A stretch of DNA of 64,000 nucleotides from Schaalia vaccimaxillae DSM 15804 (lineage in GTDB: Bacteria; Actinomycetota; Actinomycetes; Actinomycetales; Actinomycetaceae). Location of the stretch: assembly GCF_000420425.1 (NCBI RefSeq), contig NZ_ATUX01000008.1, forward strand, positions 62,001 to 126,000. The letters are read 5' to 3'. Shown piece by piece: positions 10,325-54,456 of the stretch (positions within the stretch are counted from its first letter, which is position 1; each line of letters opens with the position of its first letter). Position numbers and translations under genes: made by a program. Below the pieces are notes generated by a model, which saw nothing but the letters and a program-made list of their open reading frames with translations, made no database searches and was not told the DNA's origin.

Positions 10325-10404
10325 CCTCGCCGAGAGCAGACTTTATGGTCAAAAATCAATGATTTTCGGTCCGAAAACGACCATAAGGTCTGCTCTCGGC
10401 GAGG
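10325..10404. repeat. 80-bp inverted-repeat element with two inner palindromes
   Basis: Outer arms 10325-10350 and 10379-10404 are 26 bases each and match at 25. The 28-base centre contains two smaller overlapping palindromes: AAAATCA-A-TGATTTT and TTTTCGG-T-CCGAAAA. It lies between the convergent YajQ-family and htpX genes. It may serve as a bidirectional terminator or be a small dispersed repeat; there is no second copy in this window. Confidence 0.8.
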
Positions 10405-14303: not shown

Positions 14304-14561
14304 CCTGGTTCTCCTCAATTTGTGGTGCCGGTTCGGTGCCGGCGAGCGTTCCTCGATGGTCGAGGGCGCAAGTAGTTGCGCGCGTTCCACAGTCTACCGA
14401 CCTGAAGCAAGGTCAGCCTCATTCGTTTTGTCGAGGGCGAGGCGGGCAGCTCGAGGATGCGGCAGCCCATGACAGCCATAGTGTGTGTCGGGACGGCCCA
14501 GTTGAGTTTTAAGGCGATTGACCCAGCAAATCGATGAGCGGGCGGGTTCTGCAACGGGCGA

Positions 14562-14654
14562 GGTGCTGGGCCGGTGGGGGCAGGGCATGGTCAGGCTTCG
14601 AACCGATTCGCAAAGCGAATCGATGAGCGGGCGGGCCGCTACCGGTCCAACACC
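14562..14654. repeat. Hairpin repeat element, copy 1 (93 bp)
   Basis: Ends are inverted (GGTGCTGGGCCGGT and ACCGGTCCAACACC). The core has the palindrome CGATTCGC-AAA-GCGAATCG. Copy 2 at 20190-20282 differs at 9 of 93 positions. In this copy the outer stem keeps two G-U wobbles and has two mismatches. A 22-bp repeat array starts 9 bases to the right, as at copy 2. Confidence 0.85.
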
Positions 14655-14662
14655 AGCAACTT

Positions 14663-14700
14663 GGGCGTCCCTCGCGGAAGTTTTGGGCGTCCTTCGCGGG
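14663..14700 (-). repeat. 22-bp intergenic repeat array A (two units)
   Basis: Units begin at 14663 and 14685, each starting GGGCGTCC(C/T)TCGCGG and the first ending AAGTTTT, exactly 22 bases apart. A purine tract of GGGGAAG repeats (14698-14724) reaches to the aztA stop. Read on the minus strand, this is the 3' flank of aztA: stop, pyrimidine tract, then CGCGAAGGACGCCC-type units. Confidence 0.85.
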
Positions 14701-14729
14701 GAAGGGGAAGGGGAAGGAAGGAGACTGAG

Positions 14730-20127: not shown

Positions 20128-20189
20128 CATTCTGGTGTTGCTGGAGCGCGACAGCTGGCGTGCCCTTGAGCGCAATGGAGGGTGCTCTA

Positions 20190-20282
20190 GGTGTTGGGCC
20201 GGTGGCGGCAGGGTCTGGTCGGGCTTCGAACCGATTCGCAAAGCGAATCGGTGAGCGGGCGGGCCGCCACCGGCCCAACAAC
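20190..20282. repeat. Hairpin repeat element, copy 2 (93 bp)
   Basis: Outer arms 20192-20209 and 20263-20280 are perfect 18-base inverted copies. Inside, ACCGATTCGC-AAA-GCGAATCGGT (20230-20252) is a second perfect palindrome. The element is 84/93 identical to copy 1. It is followed after 6 bases by the 22-bp repeat array B. The 309-base interval 20069-20377 holds only the azt terminator, this element, the array and a purine tract. Confidence 0.88.
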
Positions 20283-20288
20283 AAACTT

Positions 20289-20346
20289 GTGCGTCCCTCG
20301 CGAAAGTTTTGTGCGTCCCTCGCGAAAGTTTTGTGCGTCCCTCGCG
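20289..20346 (-). repeat. 22-bp intergenic repeat array B (three units)
   Basis: Units start at 20289, 20311 and 20333, each GTGCGTCCCTCGCG and, for the first two, AAAGTTTT, with exact 22-base spacing. A purine-rich tract (20346-20375) links it to the stop of the polyprenyl synthase gene. On the minus strand it forms that gene's 3' flank. Confidence 0.9.
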
Positions 20347-20377
20347 GGGAGAGAAGGGAACCGGAAGGGAGGGCGGG

Positions 20378-40915: not shown

Positions 40916-41025
40916 GTCCCTCCCGCGAAGGACGCCCATAACTTCGCCGAGGGACGCCCAAAACTCTCCCGAAGGACGCCCATCCTTCCCACGAGGGACG
41001 CCCATCCTTCCCACGAGGGACGCCC
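40916..41025 (+). repeat. 22-bp intergenic repeat array C (five units)
   Basis: Reading the minus strand from 41025, units of exactly 22 bases begin GGGCGTCC(C/T)TCG at 41025, 41003, 40981, 40959 and 40937. The first two units are identical; the others vary in the second half (GAGAGTTTT, CGAAGTTAT). It fills the gap between convergent menF and htrA. In sense orientation it follows the menF stop after a short C-rich tract, the same polarity as arrays A, B, E and F. Confidence 0.92.
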
Positions 41026-47464: not shown

Positions 47465-47530
47465 GGGCGTCCCTCGCGGAAGTTTTGGGCGTCCCTCGCC
47501 AAACTTATGGGCGTCCCTCGCGGATGAGGG
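47465..47530. repeat. 22-bp intergenic repeat array D (three units)
   Basis: Units begin at 47465, 47487 and 47509, each GGGCGTCCCTCGC, with exact 22-base spacing; the first ends GGAAGTTTT as in array A. Unlike the other arrays it sits in a divergent promoter gap, about 35 bases before menB, and follows no gene's 3' end. Confidence 0.9.
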
Positions 47531-48706: not shown

Positions 48707-48728
48707 CGGCGTCCCTCGCGGAGAACGG
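48707..48728 (-). repeat. Single 22-bp repeat unit (locus E) with purine tract
   Basis: GGCGTCCCTCGCGGAGAAC is one degenerate unit, followed by a GGGGAAG-rich tract (48730-48752) up to the stop of the convergent L,D-transpeptidase gene. Same polarity relative to that gene as arrays A and B. Nothing else is seen in the 211-base gap 48545-48755 apart from a duplicated AGTACCCGTACTCCTACTGAG-like stretch at the menB stop. Confidence 0.7.
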
Positions 48729-48755: not shown

Positions 48756-50354
48756 TTAGTGGTGGGTGACGACGGCGGTGCCCAACTCGTTCCAGTCGTA
48801 CATCCACTTCGCCTCACCTACAGGCAAGTTGATACAACCGTGCGATGTCCGGTCTGAACCAATACCAAACTGAGACACCCAGGGTGCGCCGTGCATCGCG
48901 TAAGACCCCGTGAAGTAGGAAACCCACGGCACATCCTTTGCGCAATATGGCCACTCCGGGGTGCACCCCATATCCTGTTTCTGGTACTTCAAGTACACGT
49001 GGTAAGTGCCAGTCACAGTCTCGTATCCCGGTCCACCGTGATTCATCGCCACCGGTCCATGTACCACAGTCTGACCCTCGTAGGCGGTCAGAGTTGAAGC
49101 TGACAGATTGATATCCACCCACTTCTCACCCTCGTGCATGGGATAGACATATCCCTCATGCCCAGCCATCACCGGCTTGTCCTCAAACTCCGGTTCGACA
49201 TCCTCGTAGTCGAAGTCTCCTTCATAAGGCTTGCCTGCCGACACCGCGGCCACGATCTCATCGCGAACCTCCTCAGCGTTTATCACCCGCAGGCCTTTGG
49301 TTCCCGGGATGGACTCGACCAAAACTTCACCCGCGGCATTGACATTGCGAACACCGGGTTTGGCGGGCACATTCGTTGACTCGGCCGTTGCCTCAACCCA
49401 CTCGCTCACCTTCTGAGGATCAACCGCGACCGACGCCACTGTAGAAGCGTTGCCAGAGACTACGGTCTGGACAGCAACAGGCTGGGCCTGTGCAGAACCC
49501 GCACCTGCTTTGTCTACATCCCCAGACTGTGCCTTGTCCGCTGACTGATCCTCACCACCGGACTGATTCGCATCAGAGGACTGCCTACTTTCCTGACCAG
49601 CTGGATCATCGATCACCGGCTTGGGGAACACGATCCAGCCGGCTTTCGTCGCCGCATCGGCCTCGAAGGTATCAATGCCATCCGTAACAGTCACAGCGGA
49701 AGCAACCAATTTGTTCGCTTCAGCAGCCAAAGCCTTTGCTTGCTCATCAGTGACAGTTGGCTGCACATCCTGCGCATCAAGCTCATGGGTTGACGCCACC
49801 AACTGTGCGCCAGCATCCACCGCGATCTTCTTCAATTCGCCAGCATCAATACCCTTGCCAGGAACCCCTGGCGACACTGTGAAAGACACTCCATCAGAGG
49901 AAAGAACAGGCTGAGCCTGAACTACTGCAGGCCCCGCGTGGCGCGCCAATTCCTCGGCCCGCTCAGCGATGGTCGCGTCATCAACTGACACAACAACGGG
50001 AGTCTGCGTGGCCGAAACCAGCGCAGTAAAACGCTTCAAAACCGACGAGTTTGCGGCAAAGACTGCGTCAGCCGTTTGGACTTCATCAACTTTGACACCC
50101 AAGTCGGTCAGAGAAAACTGCGTGTCAACCCCGGCCACATCAACGGTGACTAGGGTGTCTTTGGCACGTTGAGCAATCTGGGCTTCAACCTCGGCGCGCG
50201 TCAGGCCTGACACGGATTCGCCTGCAACGCTCGTGCGAGGCAAGGCCACGTCGTCGTAGTGCAGTGCGTAGGCCGTTCCGCCTCCGACGAGGCCGAGGGT
50301 GACGACGGCTGCTGCGCCGCCGATCCACAGTTTCAAAGATCCATCAATGGGCAT
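48756..50354 (-). CDS. L,D-transpeptidase, copy 1
   Basis: 532-residue cell-wall enzyme anchored by one N-terminal helix (residues ~8-30). A YkuD catalytic domain at the C-terminus has GSYAMHGAPW and SHGCINLP with the catalytic Cys. Two repeated wall-binding (YoeB/VanW-like) domains precede it, each beginning near YDDVALPRTSVAGESVSGLT-type text, separated by a Ser/Gln/Asp-rich linker around residues 260-300. It makes 3-3 peptidoglycan cross-links or attaches proteins. AGGA lies 7 bases before ATG 50354. Paralogue of the next gene upstream; 80 bases separate them. Confidence 0.92.
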   Translation of the reverse strand: MPIDGSLKLWIGGAAAVVTLGLVGGGTAYALHYDDVALPRTSVAGESVSGLTRAEVEAQIAQRAKDTLVTVDVAGVDTQFSLTDLGVKVDEVQTADAVFAANSSVLKRFTALVSATQTPVVVSVDDATIAERAEELARHAGPAVVQAQPVLSSDGVSFTVSPGVPGKGIDAGELKKIAVDAGAQLVASTHELDAQDVQPTVTDEQAKALAAEANKLVASAVTVTDGIDTFEADAATKAGWIVFPKPVIDDPAGQESRQSSDANQSGGEDQSADKAQSGDVDKAGAGSAQAQPVAVQTVVSGNASTVASVAVDPQKVSEWVEATAESTNVPAKPGVRNVNAAGEVLVESIPGTKGLRVINAEEVRDEIVAAVSAGKPYEGDFDYEDVEPEFEDKPVMAGHEGYVYPMHEGEKWVDINLSASTLTAYEGQTVVHGPVAMNHGGPGYETVTGTYHVYLKYQKQDMGCTPEWPYCAKDVPWVSYFTGSYAMHGAPWVSQFGIGSDRTSHGCINLPVGEAKWMYDWNELGTAVVTHH

Positions 50355-50434: not shown

Positions 50435-51877
50435 TTAGTAGTGAGAAACGACGACTGTGCCCATCTCCGACCAGTCATAAATGAACTTGGCGGCATCCAC
50501 CTGCATATTGACACAGCCGTGAGATCCACCTGGCCCCGACCAACCGAAGGACGACCTCCACGGGGCACCGTGGAAAGCATAGGAGCCGGTGAAGTAGGAA
50601 ACCCACGGCACATCCGGCGTCACATACTTGGAGCCGTCTACGTTCAGTCCGCGCATCGTCTGCTTCTGGTACTTCAGGTAGACGTGGTAGGTGCCCGTCA
50701 CGGTAGGAGTCTCGGGCGCTCCCGGGACCATATAGAAGGGGCCACCCACTGCCTTGCCGCCCTCGTATGCGGTCACAGTGTTGCTAGAAAGGTTGAGGTC
50801 GATCCATTTTTCGCCTTCGCCCGCCTGGTAAACCAGGTTCTCCGAACCTTCGGCCACACGGCGTTCCTCATACTCGGGTTTGACCTCGTCGTAGTCGAAA
50901 TCCCCAGTGAAGGATTGGCCTGAAGTCAAAGCTGCCACAACTGCCTCGGCAACCTTGTCCGCGTTATTCACGCTCCAACCCGACACGCCTTCCTTGGCAA
51001 CAGACAAAACTTTGCCTTCGGAATTGACGTTGTTAATGCCCTTAGTGGCCTCAACATTGCTGGCTGCGGCAGTCTTTTTCACCCATTCAGTGATCTTTGT
51101 CGAATCGAATGAGGGGTCAGCCAGCGTTCCATCATCGGCTTGCGAGATAGACACCCACGATGCTTTATCTGCAGCGCTTGCTGTGAACTCTTCAATGCCG
51201 TCAGAAATGACCACATCTAAAGCAACCAAAGCATTTGCGCGGTCGGCAACCGCTTTCGCATTCTCGGTTGTGACGGTAGGTGAAATCTCTTCAGCCTCGA
51301 TGGTGACAGCCGCCGAAGCCAGAGACTGGGCAGCACCCTGCAAGACCTTGGCCACAGCCTCTCGGGATGCACCTGAGCCTGTCACAGCCTGCGTTGCTAC
51401 GAAAGATGCGCCATCTTCAGACGGAGACACTGCAGCATCTTTGACGTCTGAACCTGCGGCCTCGTTGACCTTGTCTGTGAACGCCTCGAGCGCTTCGTTG
51501 TCGTGAAGGAGCACGGGCTCAACCGAGTTCTTAGAAAAGATCGCAGAAATCTGAGAACCGAAGGACTTATTTGCTTTGAAAACCTCATCCGCAGTGGCAT
51601 CCGCATCCACGGAAACGCCGCCCTCGGCCAGAGTTGTTTCAACCGACTGTTCGTTCAAAGACACGGTGACTACGGTTTGGGCGACACGGTCGTTGATATG
51701 CGCCTCGACCTGGTCACGCGTCATCCCCTGAACCGATGTGCCGGCAACGGACACGCCAGGCAGAGCTTTGTCCTTGTAGTTCACGGCGTAGGCCGCCATA
51801 GAACCGACGACGAGCAGGACCAGTGCCACAGCGGCACCGATCGCCCATTTCACCTTGGATGACAGTGTTTTCAACAT
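50435..51877 (-). CDS. L,D-transpeptidase, copy 2
   Basis: 480-residue paralogue of the adjacent transpeptidase. Same plan: one N-terminal helix (AIGAAVALVLLVVGSMAAYA), two wall-binding repeats and a YkuD domain with GSYAFHGAPW and SHGCVNMQ. It lacks the long Ser/Gln linker of copy 1. ATG 51877 is chosen because the protein then begins MLKTLSSKVKW directly before the helix. A -10-like TAGCAT (51891-51886) ends 8 bases upstream, so a leaderless start is likely. Divergent from menE by 200 bases. Confidence 0.92.
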   Translation of the reverse strand: MLKTLSSKVKWAIGAAVALVLLVVGSMAAYAVNYKDKALPGVSVAGTSVQGMTRDQVEAHINDRVAQTVVTVSLNEQSVETTLAEGGVSVDADATADEVFKANKSFGSQISAIFSKNSVEPVLLHDNEALEAFTDKVNEAAGSDVKDAAVSPSEDGASFVATQAVTGSGASREAVAKVLQGAAQSLASAAVTIEAEEISPTVTTENAKAVADRANALVALDVVISDGIEEFTASAADKASWVSISQADDGTLADPSFDSTKITEWVKKTAAASNVEATKGINNVNSEGKVLSVAKEGVSGWSVNNADKVAEAVVAALTSGQSFTGDFDYDEVKPEYEERRVAEGSENLVYQAGEGEKWIDLNLSSNTVTAYEGGKAVGGPFYMVPGAPETPTVTGTYHVYLKYQKQTMRGLNVDGSKYVTPDVPWVSYFTGSYAFHGAPWRSSFGWSGPGGSHGCVNMQVDAAKFIYDWSEMGTVVVSHY

Positions 51878-52077
51878 CAGTGGACATGCTACTGGGGGCC
51901 TCGGGTGCTTTCTAGGCAAGCACGTGTCCTGGGGGTGCGCAATCAGACACATCCACCGGCCCAGGGCGTTAAAAATCTTTACCCCGATGTCACTTTCGAC
52001 GCCAAGCCGCCGTACCCTATGCCTTGTTACTGCTGTTCGAGGGCGTTTGACGCGCCCGAAACCCCAGGAGGTCGGTC

Positions 52078-54412: not shown

Positions 54413-54456
54413 CCCCACCCCGCGAGGGACGCACATCTTTCCCGCGAAGGACGCAC
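54413..54456 (+). repeat. 22-bp intergenic repeat array F (two units)
   Basis: On the minus strand GTGCGTCC(C/T)TCGCGGG units start at 54456 and 54434. On the plus strand the array follows the menA stop after a pyrimidine-rich stretch (CCCATCCCTCTCCCCACCCC), giving the same order as at arrays A, B and C. Confidence 0.85.

Follow-up and report, generated by a model that had tools for sequence, protein, structure and literature searches.

The window analyzed here, 64,000 nucleotides of the Schaalia vaccimaxillae DSM 15804 genome, contains short tandem arrays of a 22-bp unit between its genes. The five-unit array at 40916-41025 lies on the minus strand between the convergent genes for an isochorismate synthase (menF) and an HtrA-like protein, with a pyrimidine tract ahead of it from about 40902; strands are given here for the sense that reads GKGCGTCC. 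On the plus strand, two units at 14663-14706 are followed by a purine run that reaches about 14723 (pyrimidines when read the other way), three units at 20289-20354 by a purine-rich run to about 20374, and a single weak unit of 15.1 bits at 48707-48728, 3′ of the first L,D-transpeptidase gene, by another purine run. Three more plus-strand units (47465-47530) occupy the divergent gap before menB, where a clear pyrimidine tract is absent, and two minus-strand units (54413-54456) lie 3′ of menA. Genes were called with our own hexamer-based procedure; the names menA and menB were supported by matches above the NCBIfam cut-offs, aztA and menF by matches slightly under them, and both L,D-transpeptidase genes by matches to Pfam YkuD. 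These two neighboring genes (48756-50354 and 50435-51952) share a 63-nt stretch that is 81% alike.

The six places agree in position and unit number with those reported in an earlier note on this DNA. When one mismatch at most was allowed, GGCGTCCYTCGC matched the window 18 times, versus a mean of 1.57 and a maximum of 5 in 100 shuffled sequences. The order of stop codon, pyrimidine tract, and units that the earlier note had described was found at five places and fails at 47465, where the units stand in front of menB with no tract. Its statement that the units never occur inside a gene is correct for the window by our gene calls and incorrect for the whole genome, in which 8 of 97 arrays lie inside called genes. 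A scan of the window with Rfam at the gathering thresholds returned three tRNAs only and no family match at any array, and literature searches found no described family with such a consensus, as had been supposed.

Copy number and anatomy of the 22-bp unit

The genome (G000) comprises 2,338,426 bases in 13 contigs. In a search of genome contigs with its MenA, Schaalia and Actinomyces species ranked first. Exact matches to the 12-mer GCGTCCYTCGCG number 63 and 85 on the two strands, 148 in all, versus 1 in the reversed control, and doublets of period 22 number 70 and 75, that is 145 versus 0. The window and 48 further stretches, together 690 kb and containing 139 of the 145 doublets, were read closely. 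Within them, 139 of the 142 core-to-core distances below 200 nt are exactly 22, the remainder being 23, 44, and 171. A weight matrix detected 255 units above 10 bits in 103 arrays and a single unit in the reversed sequence, and only 1 match above 8 bits was found in 340 kb of G000 picked away from known hits. As the working set we took the 97 arrays with at least one unit of at least 20 bits, a cut under which the window unit at 48707 falls. This set holds 249 units in arrays of one (n = 4), two (n = 50), three (n = 30), four (n = 10), and five (n = 3), and with only the eight arrays mentioned above in called genes, at a coding fraction of 0.86, its dispersal is mostly extragenic. An identical three-unit array with 26 identical flanking bases was seen at the end of locus L096 (contig C13) and the start of L097 (contig C11), possibly an assembly break at the repeat.

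Read in the sense opposite to that of the earlier note, each unit consists of a 12-nt core, CGARGGACGCMC, and a 10-nt linker, AWAASTYYSS, and the consensus of 145 internal units carries 32 bits of information. Pairwise identity is 0.96 to 1.00 at the core sites, except R14 and M21, and averages 0.63 in the linkers; the conservation of the core is flattered by the core-based search through which the units had been found. The earlier note had described a well-kept start and a variable end, and the second part is only half right, since most linker positions alternate between two letters. Linker sites 2, 7, 8, and 9 hold nearly only A/T, C/T, or C/G, with other letters in 0 to 6 of the 145 units; site 5, where 20 units carry another letter (mostly T), and site 10, where 13 do, are looser. 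The linkers fall into the classes AAC, AAG, and CTT with few intermediates, and the correlations within a unit run among linker sites according to these classes rather than between base pairs. A CRISPR-type arrangement of identical repeats and unique spacers was not seen, in that the 10-nt linkers follow one degenerate consensus. Of the 90 multi-unit arrays, 60 are stop free in all six frames; the same holds for 24 of their shuffles and for 12 of 90 stretches taken at random from intergenic DNA.

Tandem units in arrays of one to five could be ordinary minisatellites that grow by replication slippage, and core site 21 is indeed homogeneous within arrays, a degree of likeness reached in 0 of 500 permutations. 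In the same analysis of 94 of the 97 arrays (three, either at an edge or not in phase, were left out), however, adjacent linkers were no more alike than random linkers at any linker site. Recent growth by slippage is therefore unlikely, and with one unit type at about 100 unlinked places and a fixed period, we regard the minisatellite explanation as highly improbable.

Placement, arrays inside genes, and flanking elements

Among the gaps between genes, convergent ones hold 31 arrays where 15.0 were expected, a number reached in 0 of 2,000 simulations; divergent gaps hold 20 (23.7 expected), plus-plus gaps 18 (19.7), and minus-minus gaps 17 (27.6), and 11 arrays fall outside these classes. Among 34 cases in codirectional gaps, the arrays average a relative position of 0.33, closer to the 3′ end. 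The family is thus dispersed and enriched at gene 3′ ends, as the earlier note had proposed. Two outcomes had been set there against this proposal, a lack of enrichment in 3′ flanks and copies scattered equally within genes; the flanks proved to be enriched, yet some copies do lie within genes.

This distribution could point to an RNA element at the 3′ ends of mRNAs, acting in Rho loading at the pyrimidine tract, in processing, or in stability. The 33 nt that end 2 nt ahead of the first core contain 71% C+T, versus 51% in 304 array-free 3′ flanks, which fits such an element, as do the preferred gaps. The orientation of the arrays does not: in codirectional gaps 16 arrays run with the genes and 19 against them, which is random and leaves the fixed order in gene sense without genome-wide support, and a further 20 of the 86 classed intergenic arrays sit in divergent gaps. 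Folding of 93 arrays of at least two units was close to that of shuffled sequences, with a mean z of −0.07 in the sense of the earlier note and a slightly negative −0.64, again in the direction of an RNA element, in the opposite sense; z values this near 0 speak against an RNA hairpin or terminator. Since orientation is random, no strong fold is formed, and arrays occur inside genes either way round, an RNA 3′-end element, which the earlier note had considered, is unlikely, and we give it little credence.

We then considered operators of a transcription factor regulon. A near-invariant core in phased sites would suit an operator, and so would the arrays in divergent gaps. Against this stand the bias of the arrays toward convergent gaps and 3′ ends, their occurrence in coding linkers, and the presence of about a hundred sites here with none in 34 other genomes of the genus, so that a regulon of this kind appears quite improbable.

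Six arrays lie in frame within four conserved genes, in either orientation. The S-adenosylhomocysteine (SAH) hydrolase has 607 amino acids here and matches its query in two parts, residues 10-459 and 537-607; an insert of a three-unit array and a hairpin of about 95 nt, translated in frame, is found in this gene, and Actinomyces sp. B33 (G007) has 18 nt between the two parts. Three arrays are carried by a P-type ATPase gene (928 amino acids), one by an ABC-CbiQ fusion gene, and one by a kinase-like gene. In the SAH hydrolase, P-type ATPase, and ABC-CbiQ genes, the array positions are ones at which the aligned relatives (11, 13, and 11, respectively) vary in length. Two more in-gene calls, at a transporter 3′ end (L092) and in a 49-codon frame (L072), are unsure. 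The arrays within genes are our main evidence that the arrays are probably inserted DNA, which would act, if at all, as DNA. The earlier note had offered a nonautonomous repeat as one option, and insertion inside genes fits that option well.

If arrays are inserted, they might be remnants of the ends of a transposon like Tn7 or Mu, in which tandem 22-bp sites are bound by the transposase. Tn7 ends, as described in the excerpted part of PMC8649781, have several 22-bp TnsB sites within a short stretch, a likeness to the sites predicted here. In line with this idea, 8 of 10 array pairs less than 1 kb apart show the same mutual facing (inverted), for which an expectation of one-quarter gives an exact binomial probability of about 4e-4 (hand calculation). 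At 1 to 20 kb, however, the count is 8 of 42, near random; most of the roughly 100 arrays are single, without a second end, and no terminal motif was seen. Moreover, the rve domain (PF00665), the sole transposase family searched, had 0 matches in G000, while a control search detected it in 6 of 14 genomes. These observations make transposon relics an unlikely source of the arrays.

Repeats in the flanks sit on the downstream (D) side of the arrays; the exceptions are overlaps with neighboring arrays, one 72% match, and one match at a contig end. Ten strong copies of the hairpin of about 95 nt were counted genome-wide; six of these adjoin five arrays, always on this same side, and copies at arrays differ by 11 to 26%. 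In the window it occurs at 14561-14655, on the inner (D) side of the 14663 array, and at 20189-20283, with 18-nt perfect outer arms, on the D side of the 20289 array. The hairpin is an associated element and not part of every array. A second family of dispersed palindromes was observed in the D flanks of six arrays (L076, L079, L086, L091, L092, and L101). Elsewhere in the window, at 10325-10404, there is an inverted repeat whose 26-nt arms are 96% complementary and 28 nt apart.

Arrays are unevenly distributed among the contigs, as counted in the sequence read, outside which contigs C1 to C4 and C11 past 40 kb fall. Nineteen arrays lie at 16-115 kb of C5, 14 in the 79 kb of C12, 12 in the 76 kb of C13, and 15 in the 234 kb of C8; the sparse regions are C6 (7 in 447 kb), C9 (4 in 206 kb), and the remainder of C5 (10 in about 517 kb), and C7 has 7 in 422 kb, none past 141 kb. 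The origin of G000 itself was not located; the reference was the relative G004, whose contig start we read as dnaA-dnaN-recF. Anchors placed C5:20-90k, C10:80-110k, C12, C13, and the window's part of C8 at 20 to 370 kb from the G004 start and the sparse contigs mostly at 0.9 to 2.0 Mb; four single anchors conflict or stand alone.

Arrays in relatives and a proposed reading as phased DNA-binding sites

The exact doublet had 0 matches outside G000, both in the genus (34 further genomes) and in a 396-genome sample of the order (395 further genomes). Pattern-free sampling of relatives revealed period-22 arrays in Actinomyces culturomici Marseille-P3561 (G012). A degenerate doublet was then counted in 213 genomes of the family, with 152 matches in G000 (control, 0), 79 in G012 (control, 5), and 22 in G006 (control, 4), and 0 to 2 in each of the other 210 genomes, a search that is blind to quite different cores. 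The arrays of G012 and G006, which are genus-mates, have another core, CGARAGCATYAC, so that two core types occur in three species of one genus. Core spacings below 100 nt equal 22 in 18 of 21 cases in G012 and in 16 of 16 in G006. Of 25 groups of units in G012, 10 run through CGAGAGCATYAC, CGAAAGCATCAC, and CGAGGGGAT in this order, and in 19 CGAGGGGAT comes last. Gene calls in G012 and G006 are uncertain. A tree of MenA places G012 and G006 together with G008 and G020 and leaves G000 elsewhere without resolution; the carriers, three in all, do not make up a single clade. G008 and G020, close relatives of G012, have only 1 and 0 degenerate doublets. A tree of the P-type ATPase is compatible with a single origin.

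One site is shared between species. In a linker of the P-type ATPase, G012 has CGAAAGCATCAC-10-CGAAAGCATCAC-10-CGAGGGGATCTC immediately ahead of ATCGACGAGG, and G000 has three CGAGGGACGCCC units immediately ahead of ATTGACGAGG; both thus carry three units, with a downstream boundary identical to the nucleotide. This case came from five in-gene sites examined in three genes, and it could reflect target preference rather than descent. Other sharing is weak: when 30 groups of G012 and G006 were compared with an array-enriched set of G000, three bordered a gene whose counterpart likewise adjoins an array in a similar gap, one of them inverted, and two further groups matched more loosely. Viral contigs contained five single doublets, about the estimated chance number, and 0 matches to the G012 core; a blastn search of plasmids and phages with the five-unit array returned none, and one strict 34-nt pattern had 0 matches in a collection of genome contigs from which G000 itself is perhaps absent.

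Our preferred reading, in which we place modest confidence, is that the 22-bp arrays are probably binding sites of a lineage-specific DNA-binding protein. Each unit would be a predicted site for this sequence-specific protein. With an exact spacing of 22 bp, or about two helical turns, the proteins bound to the two to five sites of an array would share one face of the double helix and could bind cooperatively. The arrays may have spread by insertion and been retained where harmless, and the letters of the site would turn over in concert with the cognate protein. That protein could be an enzyme that mobilizes the arrays, in the manner of REP-like elements, or an architectural protein of the chromosome; we lean toward the first option, in which the arrays are a REP-like element served by a DNA-binding enzyme of its own. 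In favor of the DNA-binding reading we count the excess of cores and doublets over their controls, the exact phase, the near-invariant core, the two-letter linkers, the orientation-free placement, the lack of a strong fold, the in-gene arrays, the second core in G012 and G006, and the shared ATPase site. Against it we count that the cognate protein, a mobilizing enzyme, and element ends were not found in this analysis, that neither target duplications nor empty sites were shown, that G008 and G020 are without arrays, that site sharing between species is weak, and that the ATPase site perhaps reflects target preference. It also leaves unexplained an asymmetry in convergent gaps, where the pyrimidine side is nearer a gene in 24 of 31 cases. 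A bolder and rather doubtful version would make the arrays chromosome-wide platforms for cooperative binding of a fast-evolving lineage-specific protein, with orthologous arrays able to stay in place while their sequence is rewritten in concert across the genome; given the concentration of arrays on one origin-proximal arm, the chromosome would then bear a species-specific address code.

To our knowledge, the well-studied dispersed repeats of bacteria with known enzymes or binders are largely palindromic. The 22-nt arrays are nonpalindromic and exactly phased, their letters differ between related species, and one in-gene site is identical in two of these. Through them one can test by what route a genome comes to alter a single recognition sequence at some hundred places, and by which protein that sequence is read. 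Should they be merely a REP-like parasite, their architecture would still be new and would include its own species marker. The MIRU-VNTR of mycobacteria are likewise intergenic tandem units in an actinobacterium; those units are much longer than 22 bp, and unlike them the arrays described here have independent linkers and an exact phase. At the ends of Mu, several 22-bp protein sites lie close together. Rickettsia palindromic elements are short repeats that have entered coding sequences without breaking the frame, but they are palindromic and of unrelated sequence, whereas the 22-nt arrays are tandem; the Rickettsia elements are named in the excerpts of PMC3733652. As far as the excerpts of PMC2817692, PMC3116915, and PMC3733652 describe them, REP, BIME, and REPIN sequences with RAYT transposases share with our arrays a short length, a mostly extragenic position, about 100 or more copies, and lineage specificity, together with some in-gene copies and close inverted pairs. 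Unlike the palindromic REPs and BIMEs of these excerpts, the arrays are direct repeats in a fixed phase without a REP tag. Like the REPs tagged with CGTC, the 22-bp unit contains CGTC in the sense of the earlier note. According to the same part of PMC3733652, such families are described without an associated transposase and have a CGTC start, an 8- to 9-bp stem, a short tail, and mostly inverted dimers; in the 22-bp unit CGTC is internal, and there is neither such a stem nor a strong fold.

Other repeats were noticed in the relatives. Genome G010 has clustered inverted arrays of 19-bp units of a different family (L161:15250-15660 and L163:14001-15854), which we rejected as a counterpart because they are inverted and occur at only a few places in the 200 kb sampled. 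G025, G010, and Actinomyces sp. HPA0247 (G023) contain stereotyped GACGAGGCCGKGGC repeats, partly hairpins at gene ends; these were rejected as well, being hairpins or coding hits without tandem arrays. In G012, at L173:1-92, CCGACGGCATTACCCGG-type units spaced at about 23 nt lie beside 22-nt arrays.
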